This document shows positions 4,388-32,322 of a stretch of 64,000 bases of DNA, piece by piece. The DNA is taken from IMG/VR virus record IMGVR_UViG_3300042484_001250, positions 1 to 64,000 of that record. One strand, given 5' to 3'. Numbering within the stretch: position 1 is the first letter of the stretch; every line of letters starts with the position of its first letter. A program made the position numbers and the translations under genes. Below the pieces are notes generated by a model, which did not search any database, was not told the origin of the DNA, and saw nothing but the letters and a program-made list of their open reading frames with translations. This DNA is from a virus.

Positions 4388-4418
4388 TTGTATAATTCAT
4401 AAAAATTGCGTACCTTTA
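4388..4418 (+). promoter_or_regulatory. TACCTTTA-class phage promoter
   Basis: AAGCTTG (TTG 4388-4390), 20-nt spacer, TACCTTTA (4411-4418). The start codon of the next gene is 46 nt downstream and is preceded by CCCC at 4455-4458. Confidence 0.75.
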
Positions 4419-4464
4419 TTACGTGGTACTGGAGTTAGTATCACTTCACTAAAACCCCTTTTTT

Positions 4465-18343: not shown

Positions 18344-18514
18344 ATGAACTTTGATGATATAATAACGGAGTTGGTTGCTTTAGAATATGAGGTAACTTTA
18401 GCCAATATGAATGGACATAAGGCAAGTGATGATGATGAATATGCCGGAAAACGAAAGAGAGTGGGGGAGTTGAGAGAACTATTAAACAAATTAGAGAATG
18501 GAGCAGAAAGATAA
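18344..18514 (+). CDS. small helical protein (56 aa)
   Basis: ATG at 18344, 1 nt after the previous stop; the product (MNFDDIITELVALEYEV) is a charged helical hairpin. The longer upstream frame is a shadow of the membrane protein gene. Confidence 0.6.
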   Translation: MNFDDIITELVALEYEVTLANMNGHKASDDDEYAGKRKRVGELRELLNKLENGAER

Positions 18515-19426: not shown

Positions 19427-19909
19427 ATGAGTTTAACGGGAGCGTGGGCAAAGTTGCAGATGCAAATGGAAATGGATAGGATACGAGCTAACTATGATAC
19501 CCAACAAAAAATTTTAGAGTTACACAAATCAATGTGGGACAGAGATGATAAAAAGAATTCAGATATGCTAACGATACAAAACATAAATAAGATAGTAGGA
19601 AGGACATTCCATATAGGAGGGAACATACTAACAATAGGAAGGATATTCGATGTGTATGAGTGGATAGATAATAGGTATGAGTTTATAGTAGAAATCAGTA
19701 CACCCGATGGTAAGATAAAACAATTCTCTTTAAACTTAAATAGAGAGAAAATACCTTATCCTATAGTCTTAAAAGATTGCTGGGAACTATCTTATGAAGA
19801 GAAACCAAACCAACTAAAAGTAGAAGCATTGGGTAAGGGAGATTTACGAAATATGGGAGAGGTTATACGGAGAATATGTAATTTAATGGAAAGGGTATTA
19901 AATCCGTAG
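19427..19909 (+). CDS. MLTI-x-N array protein 1, with N-terminal extension (160 aa)
   Basis: First copy of the tandem family. A helical, Met/Gln-rich N-terminal extension of 46 residues precedes a domain that starts MLTIQNINKIVGR at residue 47, exactly like the full-length starts of the other copies. Shared features are a beta-rich body, a conserved N-R-E/K-R-E type basic-acidic pair and a C-terminal helix. Function unknown. The extension suggests fusion with a separate helical module. Confidence 0.75.
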   Translation: MSLTGAWAKLQMQMEMDRIRANYDTQQKILELHKSMWDRDDKKNSDMLTIQNINKIVGRTFHIGGNILTIGRIFDVYEWIDNRYEFIVEISTPDGKIKQFSLNLNREKIPYPIVLKDCWELSYEEKPNQLKVEALGKGDLRNMGEVIRRICNLMERVLNP

Positions 19910-19911
19910 GC

Positions 19912-20265
19912 ATGAAATTAACGATAAAAAACATAGATAAGATATTTGGTAGACAGTTGTATTCGAAGTGGATACAAAATTCTTATGGTTGGGCAGTTCA
20001 AAGTGTTGAAGATATTGGGGATAAATACATATTCGAATTAGTAAGTAATGGTAGATTCACACATGCGGAGATACAATTGAAAAGAGAACCTGTCAAATAT
20101 AATCCCGATGATAGGGTATTTTTATATGAGTTATGGGCATGGAATTTGGAAGAGGATAAAGCAGAACAGATGTGGTTTTCAATGCAAGAATTGAATACCG
20201 TAGAGGGAATGGTAATGAGATTAGGATTGATGTTAGAAAAAGTTATACCCAAAAATATTGTATAG
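19912..20265 (+). CDS. MLTI-x-N array protein 2 (117 aa)
   Basis: Starts MKLTIKNIDKIFGR, then a Y-G-W-A-V strand and I-Q-L-K-R-E-P in the middle, ending in a C-terminal amphipathic helix. Clearly homologous to its neighbour upstream and to the array at 28679-32261. No enzyme motif is visible. Confidence 0.75.
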   Translation: MKLTIKNIDKIFGRQLYSKWIQNSYGWAVQSVEDIGDKYIFELVSNGRFTHAEIQLKREPVKYNPDDRVFLYELWAWNLEEDKAEQMWFSMQELNTVEGMVMRLGLMLEKVIPKNIV

Positions 20266-20266
20266 T

Positions 20267-20617
20267 ATGGAAAAGATACACATCCAAAACCCAAACAAAC
20301 TGATTGATTTTGTAAGCAAGAGTTTAACAAGTTGGAAAATTCATTATGTAGGAGAGAACCCAACCGGAGGTATATATGAGTATGTACTAGCGGATAAAGA
20401 AAACCCTAACATAAAGATATTAGTACAAATCTATAAGGAGACACAACAAATGTATGACCCGAATGATTTTTTGAGGCATCAATATGTAAAAATCTATTGT
20501 AATAATGTAAACGTACCCCTTGCAAGAGGATGCACTAAATTTTTAAGAGTAGAAGAATTTAAGGATATGAGAAGGGTATTTAATCAAATCCATACTGGAG
20601 CTAGACAAGTATTATAA
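20267..20617 (+). CDS. MLTI-x-N array protein 3 (116 aa)
   Basis: Start at 20267 (MEKIHIQNPNKLIDF) chosen over 20258, which overlaps the previous stop. Shares I-x-N-P-N-K-L-I-D-F with the next copy, and the beta-rich body and C-terminal helix of the family. Function unknown. Confidence 0.72.
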   Translation: MEKIHIQNPNKLIDFVSKSLTSWKIHYVGENPTGGIYEYVLADKENPNIKILVQIYKETQQMYDPNDFLRHQYVKIYCNNVNVPLARGCTKFLRVEEFKDMRRVFNQIHTGARQVL

Positions 20618-20621
20618 TAAT

Positions 20622-20975
20622 ATGAAAAAGATTAAGATAGAAAACCCAAACAAACTGATTGATTTTGCTGAAAGCAGTACCATATGGACTATCAAATATA
20701 GGAGAGAATGCGATGAGGCATATACATTTGGATTGCAGTTTGACCCTAATATAGTGTGGGATGGATACCAAATCCATATCCTAAAGAAAACGAAAGTGAT
20801 AGAGGATATGTATGATGATAGTAAATCACACTACTATGTGGATATGGTATGTGAAGCGATGACTGGAATGAGAAAGCAAATCACTAACACAATACCATTA
20901 GATGATGCGATGAGAGTGGGGAAGGTATTGGCACATATGCTGGATGGAGTGGCAGAAATGGAAGGAAGATTATAA
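20622..20975 (+). CDS. MLTI-x-N array protein 4 (117 aa)
   Basis: Starts MKKIKIENPNKLIDF, the closest relative of array protein 3. Ends within the start of the HNH gene (TAATG), so the endonuclease is tightly attached to the array. Confidence 0.72.
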   Translation: MKKIKIENPNKLIDFAESSTIWTIKYRRECDEAYTFGLQFDPNIVWDGYQIHILKKTKVIEDMYDDSKSHYYVDMVCEAMTGMRKQITNTIPLDDAMRVGKVLAHMLDGVAEMEGRL

Positions 20976-22477
20976 TGACTAAAATAAGGAAAAATTTAAA
21001 TTGCAAGGAGTGTAATAATCCCAATCCAGCAGGAAAAAGTTTTTGTTCGGATAAATGCTATGATATAAATTATAAAAAAAATAAAAAGCTAAAAAGAGAA
21101 GCAAATAAGCATTTAAGATTATTGTATAATGGATTATCTAAAATAGATGAAATAAAATACTATATAAATTTAGCAAGTAAAGTTTCATCCTACAAAGAAT
21201 TGCGTAATTTAGATACAATGCCAAACAAAAGAAGTTGTAATTGGCTTGTTAAGTATTGTAAACCCAATTGGATGATATCTGCAGATGAATATAGTAACCG
21301 AATTCAATTAGAAAAAGAGGAAAGAGATGCTGAAAGAATTAGTGAAATTGGAGAGTTATCATATGTAAAACAAATTATAAGTAGTGAGCATAAGGTGGGA
21401 TATCCTTTGAAAATACAATTTGAATGTACAAATGGGCATATTATAAAAAGACCTTATAAGTATATTATAAAAGAAGGTAAATGTTCTATATGCCATACTC
21501 AAACTAAATCTGTACATAAAAAAAAGGTTAAATTACTAGAGATAGAATCCCAACAAAATCAAAAAAAAGCTGATAAACTGAAAGAATGTTTGGAGCGTGT
21601 TAAAATGGTTTCGGACTTTATTGAAAGTGGTGAGTATAAAAATTATGATAGTTGGAATCAAACCCCAATATCATATGGGTATCATTGGTTACGAAATGGA
21701 TTTGGTAAGGAATATTTAACAAACGAATTAAAATTGGAATTGGATAGGATAAGTTATTTTACATATAAAACAGCTGGTGCAAGGTGTCCATATCCAAAAA
21801 AGAAAGGGCATAATTGGTGTAAACACTGTGAGACAGAAAAACATGAAAATGATTTTAGAAGGAATATTTGTAAGCAATGCTCGTTACAATATAGGAGGGA
21901 TACATACTATGAAGCAGGTAACATACAAGGTAGAATAAACTATCATACAAACCCAATGGTTAAATTACATGCATTGGTTAAGGTATATGTTAATTCGGCA
22001 TTGAAGGGAAAGTCAAAATCATTTCGTACAAAAGATATATTGGGTCTAGAGTGGGATGTATTTAGGGATTATATTGAAGGGATGTTTGAACCTTGGATGA
22101 CTTGGGATAATCATGGACATGGTATTGGTAAGTGGGCATTGCAACATATAATACCAAAAACATACGCAGAAACCGAAGATGACATTTATAGATTGAATTA
22201 CTATAAGAATCTAATGCCAATGGATTTTTCGGACAACGGAGCATTGCATGATAGGATACTAAGATATCAATTGAATGAATGGCATTATGATAATTGTAGT
22301 GATTTTTTAGACAAGTACAAAGACAGGATATTAGAAAGTATGGACGAAATCCACTCGAAGCCGGACACACCTAATAAAATAAATTCAGCTAAAAATACTA
22401 GTAATAATAATAAGACAATAAAAGAACTAAGTATAGGTATAGGTAGTATAGATAGAACTCCCTACCTAACGGAATAA
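20975..22477 (+). CDS. HNH endonuclease with several zinc fingers (500 aa)
   Basis: Three cysteine clusters are visible: C-K-E-C ... C-S-D-K-C at residues 9-27; C-T-N-G-H ... C-S-I-C around 149-172, the zinc-ribbon pattern common in mobile endonucleases; and W-C-K-H-C ... C-K-Q-C near 284-309. The C-terminal part has WALQHIIPKT and, 20-odd residues later, N-L-M-P-M-D, matching the H-x-x-P ... N-L core of HNH nucleases; the usual Asp before His is Gln. A low-complexity Asn/Lys tail ends the protein. It is most likely a free-standing homing-type endonuclease. It sits at the end of array 1 and just before the repeat-rich non-coding region. Confidence 0.7.
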   Translation: MTKIRKNLNCKECNNPNPAGKSFCSDKCYDINYKKNKKLKREANKHLRLLYNGLSKIDEIKYYINLASKVSSYKELRNLDTMPNKRSCNWLVKYCKPNWMISADEYSNRIQLEKEERDAERISEIGELSYVKQIISSEHKVGYPLKIQFECTNGHIIKRPYKYIIKEGKCSICHTQTKSVHKKKVKLLEIESQQNQKKADKLKECLERVKMVSDFIESGEYKNYDSWNQTPISYGYHWLRNGFGKEYLTNELKLELDRISYFTYKTAGARCPYPKKKGHNWCKHCETEKHENDFRRNICKQCSLQYRRDTYYEAGNIQGRINYHTNPMVKLHALVKVYVNSALKGKSKSFRTKDILGLEWDVFRDYIEGMFEPWMTWDNHGHGIGKWALQHIIPKTYAETEDDIYRLNYYKNLMPMDFSDNGALHDRILRYQLNEWHYDNCSDFLDKYKDRILESMDEIHSKPDTPNKINSAKNTSNNNKTIKELSIGIGSIDRTPYLTE

Positions 22478-22503
22478 CTAACAACACTAAATCAACCTAA
22501 AAT

Positions 22504-22623
22504 ATGGAAAACTTTTTATACGGAATGATAGCAGGGATAGGGATAACGATTATAACCCTAATAACGATATCACACTACCTATTTCCAACTAAGAAAGAAG
22601 ATGATAACCAATGGGAACCCTGA
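22504..22623 (+). CDS. single-pass membrane peptide (39 aa)
   Basis: ATG at 22504, 39 codons to TGA 22621. One membrane helix (GMIAGIGITIITLITI) and a short acidic tail. Overlaps the next small ORF by 13 nt. Supported by composition only. Confidence 0.5.
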   Translation: MENFLYGMIAGIGITIITLITISHYLFPTKKEDDNQWEP

Positions 22624-22754
22624 AAGAAAGGTTAAAAAAGATAGGGAAGATTAGCAAGGAACTTGTTAAGAAATACTGGTGGGTAATCCTTATATACTAC
22701 ACCCTCAAAGGGATTGCGGCTCTGCTCTTTATGTGGTTCTTAATCAACGCCTAA
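22611..22754 (+). CDS. single-pass membrane peptide (47 aa)
   Basis: ATG at 22611, 47 codons to TAA 22752. A basic amphipathic N-terminus is followed by a membrane helix (WWVILIYYTLKGIAALLF). Unrecognised. Confidence 0.52.
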   Translation: MGTLKERLKKIGKISKELVKKYWWVILIYYTLKGIAALLFMWFLINA

Positions 22755-22785
22755 GAGCACTATTATTACACACTAATAATTATCT

Positions 22786-23123
22786 ACGTTTTTTATCCAA
22801 AATCGCTTAGAATTCAACTATCGAAGAATTATCATATATGGAGTGGTTAAAAATCGTATCCATATCACACCCACATAGAGCAGTATTAAAATTACCTAAA
22901 GTTATAGGGTAATAACACCAAAAAGATAGCTAGTTAATATATCACATTACCCGATAGGCTACTACACACACCTTTTGAGAGCAAATTTTTTTTTCAAGCC
23001 CGAGCTTCCACACTATTTTTGGATACGTTTTTTATTCAAGCCAACGGTTTTGGATACGTTTTTTACTCGGAATTTTGAATACGTTTTTTATTCAAGTCCG
23101 ATGAGCTGGATACGTTTTTTATT
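22786..23123 (+). repeat. TACGTTTTTTAT repeats (5 copies)
   Basis: The core TACGTTTTTTA(T/C) occurs near 22784, 23023, 23057, 23080 and 23110. The last four are spaced roughly 23-34 nt and share flanks TTTTGGA before and TCAAG or TCGGA after. They look like iterons or clustered protein-binding sites. Confidence 0.65.
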
Positions 23124-23214
23124 CCGATAAGCTGAAAAAATCCCCATAACATATAAGTTGTGCGAAATTTACATATGTGATTAGCTAGTTTACAATTGTA
23201 TTATTCTAAGCGAT
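22802..23214. repeat. 12-bp inverted repeat flanking the iteron-like repeats
   Basis: ATCGCTTAGAAT at 22802-22813 is the exact reverse complement of ATTCTAAGCGAT at 23203-23214. The arms enclose the TACGTTTTTTAT cluster. Twelve bases could arise by chance in 64 kb, but the placement is suggestive. Confidence 0.45.
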
Positions 23215-23438
23215 GACAGCAGAATTCCCAAGGGTCAAGCGAAAAAACGTTGTACTTTTTTAAGAAACGGGCCCAATCTTAGTTTTGTACCATCATTTTT
23301 TGTTATATAATTTACATTATGTTAAGTAGAGCGGCACCATATTAGAAAAGTACAATTCCATATTCACGAATCCACGATACCGGTGCAATCCCATCCCAAA
23401 AAAATATAAAAAAAAGCTGAAAATAAATCGAAAAAGAC

Positions 23439-23469
23439 TTGACTTTATGGAATTTATTTCGTATTTTTA
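23439..23469 (+). promoter_or_regulatory. probable promoter reading out of the non-coding region
   Basis: GACTTGAC (TTG 23439-23441), 20-nt spacer, TATTTTTA (23462-23469). It lies between AAATAAAT and ATTTATTT arms, like the merged hairpin-promoter at 4828. No ORF starts before 23591, so it makes a long leader or a small RNA. Confidence 0.5.
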
Positions 23470-23554
23470 AGGTGTGGGAGGGCGGGTGATATATTCCATA
23501 TTCCAGCCTAACGTGAGACCGGTGAGCAAGTTAGCAAAATAATTCCGAATTCGT

Positions 23555-23585
23555 TTGGATATATCAGGAAGTTTTCGTATCTTTG
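23555..23585 (+). promoter_or_regulatory. TATCTTTG-class promoter
   Basis: TTG (23555-23557), 20-nt spacer, TATCTTTG (23578-23585). ATG 23591 is 5 nt beyond, implying a leaderless mRNA. Confidence 0.7.
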
Positions 23586-23590
23586 TACTG

Positions 23591-23884
23591 ATGGAAAAAA
23601 CAAGGCAGATGCACTTGGTGGCTGAACTATACACTAATAATAAGACGGGGGAGTACTACGTTGTTACGAATCCTCATTCAGATGAGCCCACATCCATTCG
23701 AAAATATTATTTACCAATCGGGCCCAAACTAATCTATCCTAAGAGATGGGGGAGGAAAGCAGGAGCACTTGAGTTGCTGAAAGCTAAGATTGAAGACCAG
23801 AAGAGAATACTACATAATGCAAATAAAGAATTACTCAAGCTTCAGGCTTGTGAAGTAGAAACTCTAAAATGGAAAGATGATTAA
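23591..23884 (+). CDS. hypothetical protein, probably leaderless (97 aa)
   Basis: The frame is open from 23555, but that codon is inside the promoter, so ATG 23591 (MEKTRQMHLVAEL) is used. Beta-rich N-terminal half and a charged coiled-coil C-terminus. Unrecognised. Confidence 0.68.
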   Translation: MEKTRQMHLVAELYTNNKTGEYYVVTNPHSDEPTSIRKYYLPIGPKLIYPKRWGRKAGALELLKAKIEDQKRILHNANKELLKLQACEVETLKWKDD

Positions 23885-24056
23885 ATACACAAGGGAATCA
23901 ATGTTGCTTATCGCAGCCTCAATGGGATTAGATGAGGAGTTGGTATCGTATGCCAAACAAATACAATCTGTGCTTTCCTCCGGTGGAGATGGGTGTCCAT
24001 ATGAAGATGCTTTGGAAATGGCTTTCGAAGAATTAATCCGGCCCAAATTAGCCTGA
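23877..24056 (+). CDS. small hypothetical protein (59 aa)
   Basis: ATG at 23877 overlaps the previous gene by 8 nt; 59 codons to TGA 24054. A helical acidic protein (MIKYTRESMLLIAASMG). Unrecognised. Confidence 0.58.
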   Translation: MIKYTRESMLLIAASMGLDEELVSYAKQIQSVLSSGGDGCPYEDALEMAFEELIRPKLA

Positions 24057-24094
24057 CAAATAGTCACACATAACCTGACACATCGTCATATATT

Positions 24095-24129
24095 TTGTTA
24101 GGAATTTCCATGTCTTTTTCATACCTTTA
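24095..24129 (+). promoter_or_regulatory. TACCTTTA-class promoter, irregular upstream element
   Basis: TACCTTTATTATATG (from 24122) is present and followed by a GAGAGAGA leader with TTCTC. The best TTG (24095-24097) is 24 nt away instead of 20, so this may be a weaker or differently controlled member. Confidence 0.55.
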
Positions 24130-24176
24130 TTATATGTGAGAGAGAGATGGTTCTCCTCCTTTAACCCCACTTTGTT

Positions 24177-24350
24177 ATGATTTCTTCCCTTTTGCTTGAT
24201 GAACGTTACGATGAGATAATCCTTGAAGATATGATGTACCAACCTATGTGTGATGAGATGAAAATCAAACCCTATGTTGGTGAAGATATTGAGGATGCCA
24301 TCTACGATTTGTTATCACATATTGAAACCTTTAATAACGTAAAACTTTAA
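24177..24350 (+). CDS. small hypothetical protein (57 aa)
   Basis: ATG at 24177 follows CCCC (24165-24168) at the end of a GAGAGA-hairpin leader; 57 codons to TAA 24348. Acidic helical protein starting MISSLLLDERYDE. Unrecognised. Confidence 0.62.
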   Translation: MISSLLLDERYDEIILEDMMYQPMCDEMKIKPYVGEDIEDAIYDLLSHIETFNNVKL

Positions 24351-24360
24351 TCCCCTATAT

Positions 24361-24600
24361 ATGAACAACGAACAAACCATTTACATCAACACTCCGGCTA
24401 ACAAAGGTAGAACCATTAAGGCTGGAACACCAATCATTTGTTTTGAAAGATTCCGCATTCCATATCGTACTAAGGCTCAACGTCAAGCGATTAGAGAGTT
24501 TATCGGATTGTATAAGACTTCCGCTGTTGAGGAGGCCTTGGCAGCCGGAAGAGGTTTGGAAGCTGGTATTCCTTCTTATGTTTTAAAATTCATTTCTTAA
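24361..24600 (+). CDS. hypothetical protein (79 aa)
   Basis: Small basic protein whose centre (IPYRTKAQRQAIREF) could be a nucleic-acid or protein binding helix. CCCC at 24352-24355 lies 5 nt before the start. Unrecognised. Confidence 0.68.
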   Translation: MNNEQTIYINTPANKGRTIKAGTPIICFERFRIPYRTKAQRQAIREFIGLYKTSAVEEALAAGRGLEAGIPSYVLKFIS

Positions 24601-24611
24601 CCCCATTCATT

Positions 24612-24854
24612 ATGAGATATTCAGATAGTAAGATTACGGATTTAGTTAAGGTAGTAGGCGAGGATACACCAGAGAACTTCTCTCCTACCTTACGTGCTAA
24701 GTTAGTACATATTAATGAGTACGCTGGGATGTGTACGATGGAGGTAGTTAAATCCATCTACCCAGCTCACTCCTTTTCAGCTTCCAATAACCATAGAGCT
24801 GGTGAGAGGTATGAGAGACCTTTGGAGTATGTATGGAACGCATTTTTCTTTTAA
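24612..24854 (+). CDS. hypothetical protein (80 aa)
   Basis: Small soluble protein; CCCC at 24601-24604 lies 7 nt before the start, directly after the upstream stop codon. Unrecognised. Confidence 0.66.
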   Translation: MRYSDSKITDLVKVVGEDTPENFSPTLRAKLVHINEYAGMCTMEVVKSIYPAHSFSASNNHRAGERYERPLEYVWNAFFF

Positions 24855-24872
24855 AAATATTTGTTAAAAGGC

Positions 24873-24903
24873 TTGTATATATCAGGAATTTTACTTACCT
24901 TTA
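24873..24903 (+). promoter_or_regulatory. TACCTTTA-class promoter
   Basis: AAGGCTTG (TTG 24873-24875), 20-nt spacer, TACCTTTA (24896-24903). Confidence 0.78.
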
Positions 24904-24907
24904 TTAT

Positions 24908-25034
24908 ATGAGAGAGAGGTTGATTGCTTTGATTGTGTTCTTAATGGTAACGGGTCACCCCTGCCGATTGAGGGTGTTAGCAATCTCTGTAAGACACCTC
25001 CCAAAAATTGAAATTGGTTTTAACCCCTTATAAT
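24908..25034 (+). promoter_or_regulatory. long structured 5' leader
   Basis: The leader between the 24873 promoter and ATG 25035 is about 125 nt, much longer than its relatives. GATTGC (24922-24927) pairs with GCAATC (24980-24985), enclosing a CACCC/GGGTG hairpin (24956-24960/24972-24976). A 41-codon ORF from ATG 24908 crosses it but has no recognisable product. It may be a regulatory leader or a small RNA; no known riboswitch is recognised. Confidence 0.45.
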
Positions 25035-25235
25035 ATGAATAACGAAGAAATTGCTGGTTTGAGTTTGGTTGAGTATGTGGACCTGTTAGAGGGTATGGCG
25101 GTGTTGAATGGTTCTACTCCTGCGAAGGTGAACTTTGATTATTGTTTTTGGTATGGTGTGATTAGTGAGGATAGGTTTGAGGAGGCTAAGTGGGCATTGA
25201 CAATTCGTAAGGTAGTTGAGAACTACTACGTGTAA
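25035..25235 (+). CDS. hypothetical protein, paralogue of 26930 (66 aa)
   Basis: ATG 25035 follows CCCC (25024-25027). The body LSLVEYVDLLEGMAVLNG ... VISEDRFEEAKWAL aligns with LSLERYVEFIEERAKALG ... VVSYDRYEEAMELI of the gene at 26930, so these are paralogues. Helical, function unknown. Confidence 0.7.
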   Translation: MNNEEIAGLSLVEYVDLLEGMAVLNGSTPAKVNFDYCFWYGVISEDRFEEAKWALTIRKVVENYYV

Positions 25236-25270
25236 GATATTAAGTGATTTGTAAACATAGTTTTTGGATT

Positions 25271-25299
25271 AAACCCCTCTGGTACTGCTGGTGGGGTTT
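25271..25299 (+). terminator. probable terminator
   Basis: AAACCCC (25271-25277) pairs with GGGGTTT (25293-25299); the T tract after it is short (GTTGT), so efficiency is uncertain. Confidence 0.5.
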
Positions 25300-25373
25300 G
25301 TTGTATGCGGAGGCCCCGGCATATACCATTAAATAAATAATTGAAAAAAAAGCAAAAATAATTGTTAAAAGGC

Positions 25374-25404
25374 TTGTTTATTTGCTAACTTTTACTTACC
25401 TTTA
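25374..25404 (+). promoter_or_regulatory. TACCTTTA-class promoter
   Basis: AAGGCTTG (TTG 25374-25376), 20-nt spacer, TACCTTTA (25397-25404), then a GTGAGAGAGACAGTTCTC leader hairpin and C6 at 25438-25443. Confidence 0.8.
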
Positions 25405-25448
25405 TTATATGTGAGAGAGACAGTTCTCCACTTTAAACCCCCCTTATT

Positions 25449-26036
25449 ATGGCTTCTTCTAAGAACACTACGAAATTTAAATTGATGGGTATCACTTTTG
25501 AATTACCCTCTGCTTGTTTAAGAACTACTAACTACTGGGGAGAACCCCTTACTAACCCTACTATCACTATTGGACGTAAGGAAGTTCCTTTGATGTTCAA
25601 ACAATTTATGAAAGTTAAATATCCTAATATGTTGGTATGGGGTAAATCCTCTACCTTCGCTAATGGTTCTTCTTCTGACTTGTATGCTTGTAACGCTGAT
25701 GGTTCGGAGTTAGAATATGGTACTAAAGAGTACTATGATATTGCTTCTTTCTGTAATATGTTCAAAGGTGGACATTACGATGGGATGCATGATTGTTATG
25801 AGTACGCTGAGAATGGTAAGAGTGATAACGGAACTGAATTAGAGTTCAACGCTAAGTATGTTTCCTTTAATGGTAAAGCCCCCTTCGGTACTTGGCCTGA
25901 AGCGAAACGTTCCCTAAGAGATATGCTAGATGGTAAGTATGTGTGGGGTGTATTAACTTTAGAGAAAGCAATTGAGAAATTAAAAGGATATTCCTACACC
26001 GAAGCTACAATCGCTAAAGCAGTGGCTAGCTTGTAA
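25449..26036 (+). CDS. hypothetical protein (195 aa)
   Basis: Unrecognised soluble protein, the largest product of the TACCTTTA regulon in this stretch. Mixed fold, rich in Gly, Tyr and Asn, with four Cys. C-rich tract 5 nt before the start and strong promoter suggest high expression early after infection, an inference from promoter similarity only. Confidence 0.78.
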   Translation: MASSKNTTKFKLMGITFELPSACLRTTNYWGEPLTNPTITIGRKEVPLMFKQFMKVKYPNMLVWGKSSTFANGSSSDLYACNADGSELEYGTKEYYDIASFCNMFKGGHYDGMHDCYEYAENGKSDNGTELEFNAKYVSFNGKAPFGTWPEAKRSLRDMLDGKYVWGVLTLEKAIEKLKGYSYTEATIAKAVASL

Positions 26037-26077
26037 TCGGACACTAATAAAAATAAATTCATTTAAACTCCCTATAT

Positions 26078-26275
26078 ATGAAACACACTAATGGTTACTT
26101 ACCCAAAATCGAATACCATACTAAACGAATAAGTGAATTGTCTTTTTCACTTCAGTATGGACACCCTAAATACATAGGGGGACTGACCACCCGAATCACT
26201 AACCACATAAAGCGGTTAGAATATTTTGTAGCCCGTCACTGTGAGGAGAGCGGAGGCGTTGTGGGTGTGTTGTAG
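26078..26275 (+). CDS. small basic protein (65 aa)
   Basis: Lys/Arg/His-rich, possibly nucleic-acid binding. The start is preceded by CTCCC (26069-26073), a variant of the C tract. The last codons run into the GCGGAGGC-containing segment. Unrecognised. Confidence 0.58.
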   Translation: MKHTNGYLPKIEYHTKRISELSFSLQYGHPKYIGGLTTRITNHIKRLEYFVARHCEESGGVVGVL

Positions 26276-26580
26276 TACCCGGCGGAGGCGGCTCGTAAAT
26301 AGATTGGATTCAAAAGGTAGAATGTGGTGGTTTGTGGCACTAATGCGGAGGCGTTGAGTGGCACTAATAAGTAGGTGGTTATACTCCGAGGTGGGGGGGG
26401 ACTGGTTACTTGTAAAAGGTCTTGCAACTTTTTTTTGGAAGGGGGCCCTAATACCTTTTCGCCCCGAGCCAGGTTTTTTTCTCTGGGGTTTACTTTTTGT
26501 GGGACAGAGTAGACTCTTGGTTTACCCCAAAGGGAGGGTTTTTAGATAGTACCTATCCAGCTTACTTGAGCTAACTTACT
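26276..26580. other. GC-rich, repeat-bearing gap
   Basis: No convincing gene. The octamer GCGGAGGC occurs at 26250, 26282 and 26345 (and at 25307 upstream). GTGGCACTAAT is repeated at 26333 and 26356. Runs of G and T follow. Base composition is much richer in G than the surroundings, so it may encode structured RNA or be a remnant of inserted DNA. Confidence 0.45.
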
Positions 26581-26617
26581 TATGTGGATTGATACAAAAA
26601 TAAATTTACCTAAATGT

Positions 26618-26648
26618 TTGGAATTCTCATTTATTTTACTTACCTTTA
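26618..26648 (+). promoter_or_regulatory. TACCTTTA-class promoter
   Basis: TTG (26618-26620), 20-nt spacer, TACCTTTA (26641-26648). The spacer TCTCATTTATTTTACT is the same as in the 4845 promoter. Confidence 0.75.
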
Positions 26649-26695
26649 ATATGTGGTTGAGAGACAACAAACCTTCCCTCCCTCCACTCTATATT

Positions 26696-26917
26696 ATGAA
26701 AACCCCAAAGATTACTAAGAAAGAGTTGATTGCTATCGCCCCCACCATTAACGCTGCAGAGTTCGAAGCCTTATGTGAGAAGAATGGTATCCACACTAGT
26801 TGGCTGGATGTAAGTGTAGAGGATTATAATAGAGAATACTACAACGTTGAGATAATGGAGTATAACCTATTCGTTGCCTACTACAATGGTAAGTTAGAAG
26901 AGATTTACGACCTATAA
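26696..26917 (+). CDS. hypothetical protein (73 aa)
   Basis: ATG 26696 (MKTPKITKKELIAIA) lies after the promoter; the frame open from 26582 runs through the promoter and is not used. The leader has CCCTCCCTCC instead of a pure C tract. Acidic small protein, unrecognised. Confidence 0.68.
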   Translation: MKTPKITKKELIAIAPTINAAEFEALCEKNGIHTSWLDVSVEDYNREYYNVEIMEYNLFVAYYNGKLEEIYDL

Positions 26918-26929
26918 AAGATATAAGAT

Positions 26930-27181
26930 ATGAAAAATGGATTAGATTTGAAACCATCAACTATTAAACGTCTTTCCTTAGAACGTTACGTTGAGTTTAT
27001 TGAAGAGAGAGCAAAAGCATTGGGTATCACCCCTAAACGAGCCAATTCAGAATACTATATAAATGAAGGTGTGGTTTCGTATGATAGATATGAAGAGGCT
27101 ATGGAGTTGATTCAAAAACGGATTAACGTTAGGAACTCAATGGCAATATCGGATTACATTGATTTTCAAATAGGAAGATAA
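26930..27181 (+). CDS. hypothetical protein, paralogue of 25035 (83 aa)
   Basis: Shares the L-S-L-x-x-Y-V-x-x-x-E and V-x-S-x-D-R-x-E-E-A motifs with the gene at 25035, with an extra N-terminal and C-terminal piece. Helical; function unknown. AAGATATG start context. Confidence 0.7.
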   Translation: MKNGLDLKPSTIKRLSLERYVEFIEERAKALGITPKRANSEYYINEGVVSYDRYEEAMELIQKRINVRNSMAISDYIDFQIGR

Positions 27182-27186
27182 AAGAT

Positions 27187-27306
27187 ATGAACAAAGAAAT
27201 GGATTTTGTATTAAAGGTAAATGGACAATACCTCATACTATCATCCCTCCAATATGAGAAGTGGTTGATGTATGGGACATTGCCAAAAGAACGGATTAAC
27301 AAATAG
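27187..27306 (+). CDS. small hypothetical protein (39 aa)
   Basis: ATG at 27187, 39 codons to TAG 27304, again with AAAGATATG start context and tight spacing on both sides. Product starts MNKEMDFVLKVNGQY. Unrecognised. Confidence 0.55.
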   Translation: MNKEMDFVLKVNGQYLILSSLQYEKWLMYGTLPKERINK

Positions 27307-27308
27307 AT

Positions 27309-27545
27309 ATGAATACATTAGAAATAGTTGGTTACTTCGCAATGGGTATGAGTGTACTCTCCTTTGCGTTCTCTAAACAAAAGCTGGTTCGGATAGTGAA
27401 CTTCTTTGCATGTTTAGTGTGGGTTTGGTATGGGTTCTTAATTCAGAATAACCCTACTATCATTGTAAACGTTATGGTATCGATGGTACACCTATATTGG
27501 TTTATTAATCGTTGGTGTAGAATCTCTAAATTAAATCGTAAATAA
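27309..27545 (+). CDS. small polytopic membrane protein, YgjV-like (78 aa)
   Basis: Three hydrophobic helices with K-Q-K-L-V-R-I-V-N between the first two and W-Y-G in the middle, a pattern reminiscent of the YgjV/SemiSWEET-like small membrane proteins. The match is weak and no transport substrate can be named. Confidence 0.6.
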   Translation: MNTLEIVGYFAMGMSVLSFAFSKQKLVRIVNFFACLVWVWYGFLIQNNPTIIVNVMVSMVHLYWFINRWCRISKLNRK

Positions 27546-27548
27546 GAT

Positions 27549-27641
27549 ATGCATTATAAAGGAAGAAACAAAGATATCATAAAGGTGATTATATCCCTAT
27601 TGGTATTGGGTATATTACTATGGATTGTTGAAATGATGTAA
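27549..27641 (+). CDS. single-pass membrane peptide (30 aa)
   Basis: ATG at 27549, 30 codons to TAA 27639. Basic N-terminus and one membrane helix (VIISLLVLGILLWIV). Directly precedes the second paralogue array. Confidence 0.5.
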   Translation: MHYKGRNKDIIKVIISLLVLGILLWIVEMM

Positions 27642-27643
27642 GG

Positions 27644-27970
27644 ATGAAAGCACCTATAAATTTTAGTACTAAGTTGCACGGATACGAATTGGAGGTAGAT
27701 GGGGAATCGTATATCCTTACTACAATCGCAAGTATGGATTCTTCTCTTTGGATAACTCCTATGAGAAATACGCCCGGCGCTATCATGCTACTATTCAATT
27801 GGAAGAGGGATGAATACGATATAGTGCCCATTAGCCGTTTGAGTGGAAAATCGGATTATTCTCGTTCAAAGCAGGATTTGGGTTTCTCTCCTCATAAGTT
27901 CAGAACATTCGATTCGTTCATAGAGTGTACTACATCCCTAATCAGAGACCATAAGGAATTATTTAATTAA
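27644..27970 (+). CDS. MKxPxNF array protein 1 (108 aa)
   Basis: First of three consecutive paralogues that start MK(A/G)P-x-N-F and share G-Y/F near residue 14, a W-I-x-P strand, I-M-L-x-F-x-W and a final F-x-(T/S)-F-x-x-F-I helix. No catalytic motif. Probably a divergent branch of the MLTI-x-N family that follows. Confidence 0.75.
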   Translation: MKAPINFSTKLHGYELEVDGESYILTTIASMDSSLWITPMRNTPGAIMLLFNWKRDEYDIVPISRLSGKSDYSRSKQDLGFSPHKFRTFDSFIECTTSLIRDHKELFN

Positions 27971-27973
27971 GAT

Positions 27974-28300
27974 ATGAAAGCACCAATCAATTTTGCTAAA
28001 CGGATTAATGGATATAAAATGCCCGGCTCATGGAGTAATTGCTATTTAGGGAATAACGAAGGGGATGACGATAAGGTATGGATATATACTAAAGATAAAT
28101 CTACCAATTCAATTATGTTAGAGTTCCGATGGGATGAGGAAGAATATAGGGTATGTATCGCAGGGAACGGAGATGGTACAAACTTTCACACCATTCTTAA
28201 ACCTTGGCGATTTGACCCAAAATTCTTCACATCCTTTGATACATTCATTGGATGGTTATTTGAGAAGTTGAATGAGTGGGGAAATCATTTTTATAATTAA
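27974..28300 (+). CDS. MKxPxNF array protein 2 (108 aa)
   Basis: Starts MKAPINFAKRINGYKM, with IMLEFRWDEEEYRVCIAGNG in the middle and F-F-T-S-F-D-T-F-I-G-W near the end. Closest to array protein 3. AAGATATG start context identical to its neighbour, consistent with duplication of a whole gene unit. Confidence 0.76.
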   Translation: MKAPINFAKRINGYKMPGSWSNCYLGNNEGDDDKVWIYTKDKSTNSIMLEFRWDEEEYRVCIAGNGDGTNFHTILKPWRFDPKFFTSFDTFIGWLFEKLNEWGNHFYN

Positions 28301-28303
28301 GAT

Positions 28304-28627
28304 ATGAAAGGACCTCAAAACTTTACGGAACGTGTTAAGGGATTCAAACTAGCTTCAGGGTTCTATAACTATCATTTGGATGCACACCGTCATAGGGATA
28401 CCATAGTATGGATATATCCTCAATCCGAATGCTCTAACGTGATTATGTTAGATTTCGATTGGAGTAACCATACCTATAAGGTGTGTGTAGTGAGGAGTGG
28501 AGATGGGGTGAACTTCCATACCACAGAAGGGAACTCTTTTAATCCTAAATACTTCAAAACATTTCCCCTATTCATAGAATGGTTATCTTTGAAGGTTGCT
28601 GATTGGTGGGATTATTTTGGATATTAA
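28304..28627 (+). CDS. MKxPxNF array protein 3 (107 aa)
   Basis: Starts MKGPQNFTERVKGFKL; shares V-W-I-Y, IMLDFDW, C-V-x-R-S-G-D-G-x-N-F-H-T and the C-terminal helix with the previous copy. Last gene before a TACCTTTA-class promoter that starts the MLTI-x-N array. Confidence 0.76.
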   Translation: MKGPQNFTERVKGFKLASGFYNYHLDAHRHRDTIVWIYPQSECSNVIMLDFDWSNHTYKVCVVRSGDGVNFHTTEGNSFNPKYFKTFPLFIEWLSLKVADWWDYFGY

Positions 28628-28628
28628 T

Positions 28629-28659
28629 TTGGAAATACGGATTTTTTTACTTACCTTTA
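28629..28659 (+). promoter_or_regulatory. TACCTTTA-class promoter of array 2
   Basis: TTG (28629-28631), 20-nt spacer, TACCTTTA (28652-28659); CCCC at 28674-28677 directly before ATG 28679. Confidence 0.75.
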
Positions 28660-28678
28660 ATACATAATCAAAACCCCT

Positions 28679-28966
28679 ATGCTAACAATACACAATTACA
28701 AAAAGCTGGAACTACATAACATCGGAGTAGGTAAATGGTATGTGAGTGCTATCTATGAACAAAATAAAGAATACACTATAAACCTACGCTCACCCGAACA
28801 CCAAGAGACTGTGTATCTAAGTAGGATTGCTAAAGTACTTCCCGATGGTAGGAAGGTGTACCAATACTATGATAGAAATGGTAGTGTTACTCTACGGAGT
28901 GTAACGATTGATTTCATACAAAACCCATCTAACCTATTACGTTCACTTAAAGGATTTTGTTTATAG
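28679..28966 (+). CDS. MLTI-x-N array protein 5 (95 aa)
   Basis: Starts MLTIHNYKKLELHN; G-K-W-Y-V near residue 18, then Y-T-I-N-L, a Y-Q-Y-Y-D-R-N-G strand and a C-terminal helix. The DNA start ATGCTAACAAT is shared with later copies. Function unknown. Confidence 0.76.
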   Translation: MLTIHNYKKLELHNIGVGKWYVSAIYEQNKEYTINLRSPEHQETVYLSRIAKVLPDGRKVYQYYDRNGSVTLRSVTIDFIQNPSNLLRSLKGFCL

Positions 28967-28969
28967 GAT

Positions 28970-29344
28970 ATGCTAACAATACGAAACCCAACAAAGGGCG
29001 CAGACCCAGATACTGGAATCGTAATAGGTTCATTCAAATTGGTAAATGCTGGGTTGTACAATCGACCCGATGAAATAACGGGCATTTCGGATAACTACGA
29101 TTATTACGCATTCTATTGGAGTTACAATGATGAGCGTAGTAGGTTCAAATGCTTTTTAGAAAGAAAACCAATAGAGGGTACAACATCTATATACAACTTT
29201 GAGATTTACGATGAGAAAAAAGGTTTCACTCATTATGGTAAAGCCGGTTTGATTTATGCTACATCTGTGGGTACAAATACTCACCTAAAAGATAGAATAG
29301 GGTTCTATACTTGGATGATAAATCAAATAGTAAAACATATGTAA
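28970..29344 (+). CDS. MLTI-x-N array protein 6 (124 aa)
   Basis: Starts MLTIRNPTKGADPDTG; contains G-S-F-K-L-V-N-A-G-L as in copy 9 (29943), and ends with F-Y-x-W-M-x-x-x-I-V as there. Copies 6 and 9 form a subfamily, so duplication has not been strictly between neighbours. Confidence 0.76.
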   Translation: MLTIRNPTKGADPDTGIVIGSFKLVNAGLYNRPDEITGISDNYDYYAFYWSYNDERSRFKCFLERKPIEGTTSIYNFEIYDEKKGFTHYGKAGLIYATSVGTNTHLKDRIGFYTWMINQIVKHM

Positions 29345-29345
29345 T

Positions 29346-29636
29346 ATGCTAACAATTAAGAATTTTTATAAACTGTGTGGTAAACCCCTTGGAAGAGATG
29401 GTTGGGAGGTTGCTTTTTGTAGAGAAACGGATAATTGGTACGAAATTAAATTAGAACACCAACACCTATCATCTATAAAGGTATATTTGGAAAGGAAACC
29501 CACAAATACAAGTAATGGTAAGGTAGCGTATATGTTTAGGAACGGAGATGGTGAACTTACACAATACGGAGTAACTCCGGATTGGATTTTGAATATGGGG
29601 AATATGTTAAAGGCATTAGATAGATTTACATGCTAA
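29346..29636 (+). CDS. MLTI-x-N array protein 7 (96 aa)
   Basis: Starts MLTIKNFYKLCGKPLG; D-G-W-E-V, W-Y-E-I-K-L and L-E-R-K-P strands, then M-F-R-N-G-D-G-E. Overlaps the next copy by 7 nt. Confidence 0.76.
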   Translation: MLTIKNFYKLCGKPLGRDGWEVAFCRETDNWYEIKLEHQHLSSIKVYLERKPTNTSNGKVAYMFRNGDGELTQYGVTPDWILNMGNMLKALDRFTC

Positions 29637-29938
29637 CAATTAAGAACTACGATAAGTTAGAGGGAAGATTATTAGAGTTTACCGCAGGGTGGGTAGTGGA
29701 ATATTGTGAAGAGTGGGATTACACCTATACAATTGGGGTACGACATCCCGCATATAAAATTACTGCTAATAGAAAGGAATTTCATTTAAGTAGAACACTT
29801 GAATCATTGGGTAATGGTGAATGGAGATACTTCTTTTATTATGAGCATAAAAAAATTGAATTTTGTGTAGATGCGGAATACCTTTCGGATATGAATATGA
29901 TGCTAGCAACCTTATGTAAAATAGTTAATAAATATTAA
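29630..29938 (+). CDS. MLTI-x-N array protein 8 (102 aa)
   Basis: Starts MLTIKNYDKLEGRLLEF; A-G-W-V-V-E-Y, Y-T-I-G-V, H-L-S-R and a final helix. Near-identical N-terminus to copies 7 and 14 while the body is highly diverged. Confidence 0.76.
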   Translation: MLTIKNYDKLEGRLLEFTAGWVVEYCEEWDYTYTIGVRHPAYKITANRKEFHLSRTLESLGNGEWRYFFYYEHKKIEFCVDAEYLSDMNMMLATLCKIVNKY

Positions 29939-29942
29939 TAAC

Positions 29943-30281
29943 ATGCTAAGGATTAAAAATGTACGGAGAGATATAGGACATGATGATGGATACCAAATTG
30001 GTGGATTCAAATTAGTAGATGGGGGTTTACACGGAGCTGTTTCCGGCAATTTGGAAAATCCATTCTATACATTCTTTTGGTCTATGGGGGATGCTAAGAG
30101 GAGGTTTAAGGTAGTGGTGAAGAGAGAGGCGGAAGATGAGGTGTACTACCATCTTTGGATTGAGGATTTGATTATGGGAATACGAATACACGATGTACGC
30201 GTTATGAGTAGTTTGTTTAAGGATAGGGAAAGGTTCTATAATTGGATGGTGGATAGGATTGTGGATTCACTATCAAATTAA
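29943..30281 (+). CDS. MLTI-x-N array protein 9 (112 aa)
   Basis: Starts MLRIKNVRRDIGHDDG; subfamily partner of copy 6 (G-G-F-K-L-V-D-G-G-L; F-Y-N-W-M-V-D-R-I-V). A-rich leader. Function unknown. Confidence 0.75.
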   Translation: MLRIKNVRRDIGHDDGYQIGGFKLVDGGLHGAVSGNLENPFYTFFWSMGDAKRRFKVVVKREAEDEVYYHLWIEDLIMGIRIHDVRVMSSLFKDRERFYNWMVDRIVDSLSN

Positions 30282-30338
30282 ACCTTTACAAAAAAATCTT
30301 AAATTCGACCCGAATGAGAGTTGATGATACTGAATATT

Positions 30339-30659
30339 ATGCTAACAATAACGAACTACAAAAAGATAAAGGATAATCAATTCAATTGTATGGGTACATT
30401 GTGGTTGATGGGTGAGATTATCGAAAGGGATGATTACTACCAATTTGCATTTCTCCCGGAGACCAAAGGGGTGTTCGCCATACACAAATCACAATTCGTT
30501 AAGTTGTATCGGCAATTAAATGAGAATGGGTTTGAGTATGATATTGAAATTATGAATTCGATGGGAACCCGAAAGAAAATACATAATCAATACATAAAAA
30601 ATCCTAAGCAATTACTTAATTGGATTAGTTCAAAATTTTTAGTATATGTTGAAGATTGA
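30339..30659 (+). CDS. MLTI-x-N array protein 10 (106 aa)
   Basis: ATG 30339 (MLTITNYKKIKDN) chosen because it matches the family start; the frame is open from 30321. G-T-L-W-L-M, Y-Y-Q-F-A-F and a C-terminal helix. Overlaps the next copy by 14 nt. Confidence 0.74.
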   Translation: MLTITNYKKIKDNQFNCMGTLWLMGEIIERDDYYQFAFLPETKGVFAIHKSQFVKLYRQLNENGFEYDIEIMNSMGTRKKIHNQYIKNPKQLLNWISSKFLVYVED

Positions 30660-30975
30660 AAACATAGATAAGTTTAAGAGTATGTTGTGTAGTGGTAAAG
30701 TTGCACACAAAGTAATTCTAAATGGGATATGGTATATATTTTATTTTAGGGTAAGTGAGTTTAGCCCAAAGGTTCAAAAGGTGTATAGGTTAATTGGAGA
30801 TGATGTTGAGATTTGGTTAGATAGAACTCCCAACGAATCAGGTAAATATGAAATGTTTGTATCGGCTTGGAAAAACGAAGTAAAGATTTTGGTTGAGTGG
30901 GATGATTTACAAAGACCATATCTACTTGCAACAACTATGGCGAAGTTATTAGAAAAATTACAAAGGGTATGCTAA
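30646..30975 (+). CDS. MLTI-x-N array protein 11 (109 aa)
   Basis: Starts MLKIENIDKFKSML; W-Y-I-F-Y-F, W-L-D-R-T-P and a final T-M-A-K-L-L-E-K-L helix. Overlaps both neighbours. Confidence 0.74.
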   Translation: MLKIENIDKFKSMLCSGKVAHKVILNGIWYIFYFRVSEFSPKVQKVYRLIGDDVEIWLDRTPNESGKYEMFVSAWKNEVKILVEWDDLQRPYLLATTMAKLLEKLQRVC

Positions 30976-31328
30976 CGATAAAGAATTTCAAATCCTCATT
31001 ACTTAATAGTTGGTGGGGTGGTTGGAAGATTACCGATGTGTTGGAGGATACATACAAATTTGATATTGATTCGAACCTCATTGGGTGTAAACAATATTCG
31101 GTTCAATTTCATTATTACCGAGCGGATGGGTTGGGTGGACCAAAGAATGTGGGTAGGTTAATATTGGAGAGAGAAACCGATGAGTTTTTAGGAGGACAGT
31201 ATCGATATAAAATATACTTAAATCAAAAGATGATTAATGGGGGTGGAGTATTCAAAACTGCGTTAGAAGATAAAAAGGCATTTATAGAATCGGTAGTAGG
31301 TGTAATAGATTACGAATTAAAAAAATAA
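30969..31328 (+). CDS. MLTI-x-N array protein 12 (119 aa)
   Basis: Starts MLTIKNFKSSLLNSW; W-G-G-W-K-I, Y-K-F-D-I, L-I-L-E-R-E-T and a C-terminal helix. Followed by a gene that does not belong to the family. Confidence 0.75.
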   Translation: MLTIKNFKSSLLNSWWGGWKITDVLEDTYKFDIDSNLIGCKQYSVQFHYYRADGLGGPKNVGRLILERETDEFLGGQYRYKIYLNQKMINGGGVFKTALEDKKAFIESVVGVIDYELKK

Positions 31329-31333
31329 TAGAT

Positions 31334-31594
31334 ATGAAAAGATTTAATGATTTAGAGTTTAACCTACACCCTATGGGAAGTGGTGTTCAAGCACTTATAG
31401 AGTTTGAGAATAGTTATGGTGCATCCGTAGTTAGAACTCCTTATACCTATGGAGGTGGTGAGGGTTTGTATGAGTTGGCAGTATTCAAAGATGGCGAAAT
31501 CCATTACGATAATCCGATTGCCGATGGAGATGTTAAGGGATACCTAACTGAAGAAGGTGTAACTGCTTTATTAGCTGAAATCCAATTATTATAA
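31334..31594 (+). CDS. hypothetical protein inside the array (86 aa)
   Basis: Not a family member: starts MKRFNDLEFNLHPMGSG, beta-rich and acidic with a Gly/Tyr-rich middle. Overlaps the next array gene by 1 nt (TAATG). Unrecognised; its body resembles small phage proteins that report on 'field' beta sheets, but no name can be given. Confidence 0.68.
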   Translation: MKRFNDLEFNLHPMGSGVQALIEFENSYGASVVRTPYTYGGGEGLYELAVFKDGEIHYDNPIADGDVKGYLTEEGVTALLAEIQLL

Positions 31595-31974
31595 TGCTAA
31601 CAATACTAAACTTTGAGTATCAACTAAATTCTTTCAAAACAAAAGTTAATAGCTTTAGGGGTTGGTACATAATGGAGGTGGAAGAAACGCGTAATGATTA
31701 CTATTCTATAATCTTACAAAAGAATGTCCCAACTGATTTTGATTGGGTTGAGATACGATTGGGTATGGAGGCGGATAAAGAATTCCCATATGATAGGGAT
31801 TCGGATGATGTGTATAAACTACAATTCGTACATAAAGATGGTTCAGTTATATACGAACATTGGTTGGGACGTAAATGGTTAAAGAAAACAACCGCATATG
31901 AATTTATGGAAAGAGTTGGTGCTATTATTGAAAACTATGTAGAGAATCATCCAAATCTAAAATTACCATTCTAA
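31594..31974 (+). CDS. MLTI-x-N array protein 13 (126 aa)
   Basis: Starts MLTILNFEYQLNSF; R-G-W-Y-I-M-E-V, Y-Y-S-I-I-L, then Y-K-L-Q-F-V-H-K-D-G and a C-terminal helix. The longest regular copy. Confidence 0.75.
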   Translation: MLTILNFEYQLNSFKTKVNSFRGWYIMEVEETRNDYYSIILQKNVPTDFDWVEIRLGMEADKEFPYDRDSDDVYKLQFVHKDGSVIYEHWLGRKWLKKTTAYEFMERVGAIIENYVENHPNLKLPF

Positions 31975-32261
31975 TGAAACTAACTATAAAGAACTACGAT
32001 AAGATTATAGGTTGTGTAGTGGGTAAATACCAAATTACACAAGTCCGGCAGTTGAGTAAGTTATATGAAATTGTGTTTAAGGGTAAGACCCGTAGAGACC
32101 ATAAGATTGTAACCATATATAGAGAACCGCTATCCGAATACGAAAAGCAGGTTTACAAAGTAGTATGTGATGGTGAGTACACAACCATTTGGAATATCAC
32201 ATTAAAGGATAAGATTGCCACTTTACAATATCTTTCATATTGGTTGGAAAATACTTTCTAA
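31974..32261 (+). CDS. MLTI-x-N array protein 14 (95 aa)
   Basis: Starts MKLTIKNYDKIIGC; K-Y-Q-I-T-Q-V, L-Y-E-I-V-F, I-Y-R-E-P and a C-terminal helix. Last copy; TAATG junction with copy 13. Confidence 0.75.
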   Translation: MKLTIKNYDKIIGCVVGKYQITQVRQLSKLYEIVFKGKTRRDHKIVTIYREPLSEYEKQVYKVVCDGEYTTIWNITLKDKIATLQYLSYWLENTF

Positions 32262-32265
32262 ATAA

Positions 32266-32297
32266 TTAGGATATATCAATTTTTTTACTTACCTTTA
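32266..32297 (+). promoter_or_regulatory. TACCTTTA-class promoter of the RNA-repair cluster
   Basis: TTA (32266-32268) in TTAGGATATATCA, 21-nt spacer, TACCTTTA (32290-32297); C5 at 32312-32316 before ATG 32323. Confidence 0.72.
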
Positions 32298-32322
32298 TCC
32301 TATAATTAAAACCCCCAATAGT

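Follow-up and report, generated by a model that had tools for sequence, protein, structure and literature searches.

What is a set of small, diverged paralogous genes for, and why do its members keep nearly the same first letters of DNA? The question is raised by a stretch of 64,000 nucleotides (nt), positions 1 to 64,000 of IMG/VR record IMGVR_UViG_3300042484_001250, which is part of a 133-kb virus record and is called the window here. All 17 open reading frames (ORFs) that had been claimed at 19427-32261 are present, open and in place. They are named in gene order A1-A4, B1-B3 (the MKxPxNF genes) and C1-C10, and lie in an A cluster (19427-20975), a B group (27644-28627) and a C array (28679-32261). 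Fourteen of them are A/C paralogues (19565-20975 and 28679-32261), and a weak fifteenth, m0, is located at 18498-18932. We propose, as an evenly balanced call, that they form an early, exchangeable repertoire of putative binding proteins used in host takeover or counter-defence and that the conserved gene start serves as a recombination seam. The seam mechanism, the early expression and the host-directed function are what we infer from the observations below.

The A/C and B families were found by IMG/VR scans in eight contigs beyond the window's own record. The comparison set consists of nine records (G000-G008), where G000 is the window's record and G001 a twin record of the same virus; G003 and G005 are fragments of 24 and 47 kb, and the records are possibly incomplete. 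A 207-kb record is identical to the window across 17974-39935.

The common start reads ATGCTAACAATAxxxAAC, and most copies keep it at synonymous sites too. Allowing at most one mismatch, ATGCTAACAAT occurs 14 times in the window versus 2.84 expected, the largest count of 100 shuffles being 7. Six of its seven exact matches and eight of all 14 are family gene starts, which bears out the original observation that the copies keep their DNA start. Leucine at codon 2 is CTA in 39 of 42 members beginning with M-L, and 11 of 12 ortholog groups use mostly CTA (group-level p about 5e-9). In array-gene bodies the same codon accounts for 14% of leucine codons, and in codons 2-6 of 180 control ORFs (at least 100 amino acids (aa), mechanically defined, related phages counted separately) for 15 of 112 leucines. 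At conserved leucine sites of the bodies CTA reaches at most 3 of 9; codon 2 of the same 35 rows has it in 22 of 28. Asparagine at codon 6 is AAC in 31 of 41 cases versus 31% (9 of 12 groups, with ties; p 0.002). In the nine records ATGCTAACNATNNNNAA is found 44 times (36 once G001, the twin, is set aside), and every match is on the array strand; a reversed control pattern is found three times. All matches but one coincide with starts of members. The remaining one is a remnant in L004 (9492-9997): the start MLTIENYNKI runs into a stop, immediately behind which lies a gene weakly matching GIY-YIG-type families (T5orf172, E 0.007; MUG113, E 0.003; neither reaching the cut-off). Judged by codon choice, the common start is constrained as DNA or RNA.

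If the constraint acts on RNA, the start would be a translational operator or special initiation sequence of co-regulated genes, and gene junctions would fall there only owing to spacer-free packing. The conservation indeed sits exactly at the initiation region, and the co-directional C genes overlap or are 1-5 nt apart, with the exception of 57 nt before C6. In L004 the remnant and the start of the following gene overlap, and a role of the remnant in initiation is still conceivable. T4-type phages are known to repress translation at start regions (RegA), which we count in favour of such a signal. However, a general initiation bias is not expected to prefer CTA over TTA or AAC over AAT, the 180 control ORFs are without such a bias, and the exact start pattern occurs at A/C family starts only, save one exact match of its shorter form at 42737 on the other strand. 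RegA (PF01818) had no match in the nine records, but the control matched nowhere either, so this search is uninformative. We consider the RNA signal rather unlikely.

Where gene order differs between phages, different bodies are joined at or near the common start. Similarity upstream of a gene often runs from phage to phage through the gene end and breaks off after a few bases of the following gene, where the ortholog is a different one. Twelve three-way comparisons were hand-picked with the list of upstream similarities already in view. In ten of these the 90 nt upstream fit one phage better while the body fits another gene better, with a breakpoint between -2 and +25. C3 of L045, for example, resembles L044 C1 at 87 of 92 sites upstream and L044 C3 at 36 of 40 downstream; C5 of L045 resembles L044 C6 at 88 of 93 upstream and L044 C5 at 39 of 41 downstream. 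The number of synonymous substitutions per site (dS) points in the same direction. Between the window and L044 the genes outside the array have a dS of 0.15-0.35 (one 0.68), seven array genes range from 0.22 (C1) to 1.9 (C6), and an inserted 86-aa gene has 1.4. Since the divergence time is equal and yet dS inside and outside the array is not, this fits a replacement by alleles from other phages. We prefer the seam because synonymous sites of the start are conserved, dS is unequal and a remnant exists.

Are the genes one family at all? Profiles were built without a protein's own ortholog group, with 50-350 shuffled sequences per group as control. They recover 14 of 14 A/C copies of the window with E values from 4.6e-5 (C7) to 3.5e-15 (C1), far below the best shuffled one (0.033). 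The proteins of the M-(L/K)-x-I-x-N type are therefore true paralogues, as had been assumed. m0, absent from the earlier list, has E 2.7e-10 with a profile that contains it and 0.005 when held out; its ortholog in L045 reaches 3.2 when held out. The MKxPxNF genes had been regarded as a related group. With respect to sequence this does not hold: the A/C profile gives a best E of 0.6 for seven B proteins (best shuffled 1.2), a profile-profile comparison gives an hhalign probability of 0.3%, and B was rejected as a sequence relative. The predicted order of structural elements, on the other hand, is alike in the B and A/C models. B is a companion and possibly a very distant relative of A/C. B2 and B3 are 40% identical and could be a later duplication.

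The statement that no known family is recognised was upheld, as searches of Pfam, PHROGs, PADLOC and PDB sequences and folds gave nothing consistent. Pfam yielded nothing over the cut-off for the 17 listed proteins, m0 and two locus proteins. A PHROGs scan of ten proteins, B3 not among them, returned only weak matches (best E 0.0025, A1), and it gave 11 families with one member each for 35 A/C members (best E 0.0047). With 35 A/C members and no B genes, PADLOC returned two families with one member each (best E 0.0029). Among PDB sequences A/C had nothing below E 0.096 and B nothing, where PDB families outside the VIA list could still match. Matches in BFVD were weak (E above 0.02) and nearly all to uncharacterised viral proteins. 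INPHARED had no match, neither in a DNA search with 27600-32300 nor in protein searches with C4 and B2. Scanning cellular genome contigs with the C8 and C2 groups gave pattern matches and no relatives, a short-pattern method that can miss distant ones. Assignments of C7 to DUF3242 (E 0.0075) and of C9 to an Imm33-like family (E 0.12) were below the cut-off and rejected. In an open-access literature collection no title or abstract on tandem paralogue arrays or clustered anti-defence phage genes had this family or a conserved coding seam.

How variable is the set, and how old? Counted with the 35-row A/C profile, G000 to G008 hold 15, 15, 14, 4, 4, 1, 8, 8 and 10 A/C copies and 3, 3, 1, 1, 1, 1, 1, 0 and 0 B copies. 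Two weak extra members lie away from the main arrays at G002:C1 76214-76884, one of them with the common start. With 1-15 A/C copies across nine records, some of which are fragments, copy number is not fixed, because G006, G007 and G008 (111-195 kb) are without genes that other records carry in the same stretch. A tree was calculated from 62 rows (A, C and m0 copies, B genes left out); it has few columns, many open forks and uneven support. No window copy is grouped with a second one; instead, each of the 15 is placed with copies from other phages. Based on this grouping, the window copies are old lineages whose duplications predate the phages. The subfamily proposed for copies 6 and 9 (C2 and C5) is seen in the tree as a clade with its own orthologs (support 99/98).

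Repeated duplication with rapid divergence, as originally suggested, is not supported as a recent process: the tree rejects recent A/C duplication within the window, and the ratio of nonsynonymous to synonymous substitutions (dN/dS) is below 1 in all 27 ortholog pairs. In pairwise Nei-Gojobori estimates the pairs (25 A/C, 2 B) range from 0.08 to 0.85, with 26 at 0.48 or below. Flanking genes (19 comparisons) show 0.00-0.25, plus two at 0.43 and 0.55. Averaged over genes this indicates purifying selection, for the most part weaker than that on the flanking genes, and positive selection at this level is rejected by the values below 1, several dS values being near saturation. Ratios mostly above those of the flanking genes, up to 0.85 in one pair, would also be expected for near-neutral orphan genes kept by chance; the range of 0.08-0.48 in the other 26 pairs and the intact orthologs in other phages largely refute this, and we regard it as very improbable.

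The structure was predicted for C4 as A/C representative (predicted local distance difference test, pLDDT, 93.1; predicted template modelling score, pTM, 0.83) and for a B protein (pLDDT 84.0, pTM 0.78). Both models show a short helix, five strands, a short helix and a long helix in this order. For the A/C domain the prediction is an antiparallel sheet of five strands plus a C-terminal helix. When the alignment is mapped on this model, strand positions 23, 35, 37, 51, 53, 69 and 80 as well as tyrosine 33 are always hydrophobic. More polar sites of high entropy lie between the hydrophobic strand positions, most clearly in strands 2-4. N6 (34 of 35) and Y33 (34 of 34) are nearly invariant, position 55 is R in 30 of 35, and loops vary in length. 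Because conserved hydrophobic positions alternate with variable polar ones, one face of the sheet seemingly packs under the helix while the other would be free and variable, as in a binding scaffold. Added N-terminal parts are helical by eye in A1 and L004:2321 and hold CxxC pairs in L006:4110; judging from these sequences, the domain can carry other modules. The L006 member (4110-4565) is fused to an N-terminal CxxC...CxxC segment, zinc-ribbon-like by eye.

A fold search against the PDB ranked CapZ first for the A/C model (Z 5.7, 91 residues, root mean square deviation 3.6). For the B model CapZ ranks second to sixth (Z 5.2-5.8) behind a chain of the cyanobacterial NDH complex (Z 6.5). The likeness to CapZ is a weak overall sheet-plus-helix arrangement; Z stays below 8 for both models, too low to claim a shared fold, there is no sequence match, and the likeness is no evidence of membership or function. 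CapZ alpha and beta form heterodimers, and the weak neighbours include dimeric scaffolds (CapZ Z 5.7). The paralogues might accordingly be subunits of one hetero-oligomeric phage structure, either in the virion or in an intracellular complex. Co-directional, overlapping genes would suit such an assembly, as would the ortholog of C8 in nine of nine records, three of which were however found through the C8-group search. The patchy content (4-15 copies in records over 100 kb, most ortholog groups missing from several) does not suit it, nor does the position of the C array behind a host-type promoter motif and beside RNA-repair genes instead of structural genes. We hold a hetero-oligomer to be improbable.

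The promoter motif TTTACTTACCTTTA occurs 14 times in the window at up to two mismatches versus 2.25 expected, a number reached by none of 100 shuffles. Nine copies are exact, all on the plus strand (4862, 24890, 25391, 26635, 28646, 32284, 35542, 36549 and 36823), mostly with an A-rich upstream part and several with a longer common leader (GAGAGAGACAGTTCTCC...AACCCC). At 13 of 14 sites, but not at 39415, TTG or TTAG stands about 20 nt in front of the TACCTTTA-like part. The copies end in A in the window (T at 39415), and several in L004, L006 and L043 end in G. The motif is of Bacteroidota type, close to the sigma-ABfr consensus, which has TTTG near -33 and TAnnTTTG near -7 (PMC7366714). One copy directly precedes C1 (-7 region 28646-28659; repeat copy 28625-28677) and the next one (32284-32297) lies just past C10, directly before a phosphoesterase gene. 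Owing to these two copies the C array of the window probably forms a single transcription unit, whose promoter is of host type and possibly early. L004 has one copy before B and one after C9; in L006, L043, L044 and L045 one copy stands behind the final gene of the array. A looser promoter expression hit eight places upstream of the A cluster, which come without a background estimate and were not used.

Downstream of the C array are genes for a calcineurin-like phosphoesterase, an AAA_33 or polynucleotide-kinase-like ATPase and a T4 Rnl1-type RNA ligase. The array directly precedes the phosphoesterase, the ATPase and the ligase in the window, L044 and L045, and a Q member follows a ligase relative in L004 and L006. 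The array proteins could hence be accessory factors of RNA repair, with counter-defence specifically directed at tRNA-cutting systems. Against this, the repair genes have a motif copy of their own in the window, L044 and L045, the A cluster is several kb away with other genes between, and Pfam scans of the array proteins returned no RNA-binding family. We find such a role quite improbable.

The carrier itself can be placed by other genes. Since a T4-type terminase, a baseplate wedge and SbcCD-type 46/47 genes are encoded elsewhere in the 133-kb record (matches to phrog_2, phrog_6/219 and phrog_77/100), the phage is by gene content a T4-type myovirus. Its host, which we infer from the promoter motif and genes resembling outer-membrane receptors, is probably a member of Bacteroidota. 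A TonB-dependent-receptor-like outer-membrane protein (CarboxypepD_reg, Plug and beta-barrel) is encoded at 40421-43681 on the minus strand, and a second one with the same parts at L095 5488-7971 (G000 69488-71971). L044 and L045 align with the window from 37327 to about 42300, where the loci end, including part of the first receptor gene (93-94% DNA identity).

Taken together, we picture the arrays as a repertoire of small one-domain proteins specific to a phage clade. The start stretch would be a short homology seam where whole genes are added, lost or swapped. Exchange during co-infection by related phages would leave each phage with a different hand from a common deck. Promoters would make the C set early, and the variable sheet face would bind different host proteins, for which reason host takeover or counter-defence is the most likely use. 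The idea of arms-race inhibitors remains plausible because of the host-type promoter motif, the patchy content and the variable sheet face. A more specific version, possible though on the doubtful side, is a cassette system without recombinase. The start of ~18 bp would be kept constant so that any such gene recombines with any other, whole early host-binding proteins would be reshuffled, and foreign genes, e.g. a GIY-YIG-like nuclease, would enter the same slots.

A number of findings weigh against this repertoire with a seam. In densely packed genes any clean gain or loss must break near the ATG, and position alone is thus no proof of a crossing point. The triples were chosen after the similarity list and several have a gene in common (C3, C8). 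Triple e6 is weak downstream (19 versus 13 of 40), e1 is without downstream signal and e13, the zinc-ribbon-like fusion of L006, does not fit. In e7 the left gene is a B gene without the common start and the junction still lies at the ATG. MK-type genes are without CTA at codon 2, and the window and L045 show no dS contrast (0.06-0.74 outside; 0.10-0.56 in the A genes and m0). The fold matches are weak (best Z 5.7 for A/C), outer faces tend to vary in any fold that has diverged, and library scans matched no anti-defence or defence family. Finally, L007 is without motif copies, a copy directly before the array exists only in the window and L004, and the A cluster has no TTTACTTACCTTTA copy.

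The individual genes are all located on the plus strand. m0 (18498-18932) is a divergent member with an N-terminal part of its own, the domain beginning at about residue 42, and has its ortholog in L045. A1 (19427-19909; held-out E 5.3e-10) has its core from 19565 after a 46-aa N-terminal extension, helical by eye. It is followed by A2 (19912-20265; 1.2e-11), A3 (20267-20617; 6.6e-10), of the MEKIHIQNPNK type and with 80% aa identity to the L004 copy, and A4 (20622-20975; 3.2e-10), of the MKKIKIENPNK type. The B genes occupy 27644-27970, 27974-28300 and 28304-28627. The C array consists of C1 (28679-28966; 3.5e-15), C2 (28970-29344; 2.3e-9), C3 (29346-29636; 1.3e-13), C4 (29630-29938; 2.1e-15), C5 (29943-30281; 2.2e-8), C6 (30339-30659; 1.1e-11), C7 (30646-30975; 4.6e-5), C8 (30969-31328; 2.2e-6), C9 (31594-31974; 5.3e-7) and C10 (31974-32261; 9e-9). 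The listed ORF of C6 begins at 30321, its family start at 30339. C7 is the most divergent of the 14 and starts with ATGTTGAAG instead of the common form. The unrelated 86-aa gene (phrog_4074) lies between C8 and C9 (31334-31594), and its relatives directly precede C9 in L004, L006, L043, L044 and L045 too.

Directly after the A array a 500-aa gene (20975-22477, plus strand) has weak treble-clef matches and possibly encodes an HNH-type nuclease by eye; at its place L045 matches only its 3' end. An ORF-poor stretch at 23017-23124 holds a tandem repeat (period 31, 3.7 copies). Upstream of B, 27309-27545 (plus strand) encodes a small membrane protein near the YgjV and SemiSWEET families, below the cut-off; DNA identity to related phages is 79-94%, and the proteins of L044 and L045 are 99-100% identical to it. 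Elsewhere in the window there are genes for a tryptophan halogenase (2419-3945, plus strand; Pfam E 1.2e-101), a GroES-like protein (13630-13941), PhoH (48938-49777), Hsp20 (52612-53163) and a thymidylate synthase (55999-57150).

If the proposed repertoire is real, it explains how many early proteins of unrelated appearance can be kept by phages and cleanly exchanged at a coding start used as seam. In phages that have not been studied, genes for host takeover or counter-defence could then be sought by a start kept at synonymous sites. The family, for which no relatives are known, would offer about 18 ortholog groups for binding screens.

Which known systems does this resemble? Hypervariable segments of the T4-type adhesin gp38 have conserved short motifs flanking the exchanged variable parts; there, the exchange takes place inside one receptor-binding protein and not with whole genes in an array. 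The AcrID1 family of rudiviruses comprises 12 diverged small homologs in SIRV2, close together and 7 of 12 behind a common early promoter, as stated in the available part of PMC11065993. Many very diverged small paralogues in one virus, many of them early, are the likeness; archaeal viruses and an anti-CRISPR function are the difference, and a conserved coding start is not described in that part of the source. General Pfam and PDB sequence scans gave no match to AcrID1, without a direct comparison and with its presence there unverified. According to PMC4503421, gene shuffling in T4-like phages takes place at repeated promoter early stem loops (PeSL; Arbiol 2010; Comeau 2014). The phage studied here also has a repeated promoter motif. 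The seam of PeSL shuffling, however, is an intergenic promoter with stem-loop, whereas here it would be the coding start inside a paralogue array. At the level of description, the array resembles both the AcrID1 sets and the modular shuffling of T4-type phages.

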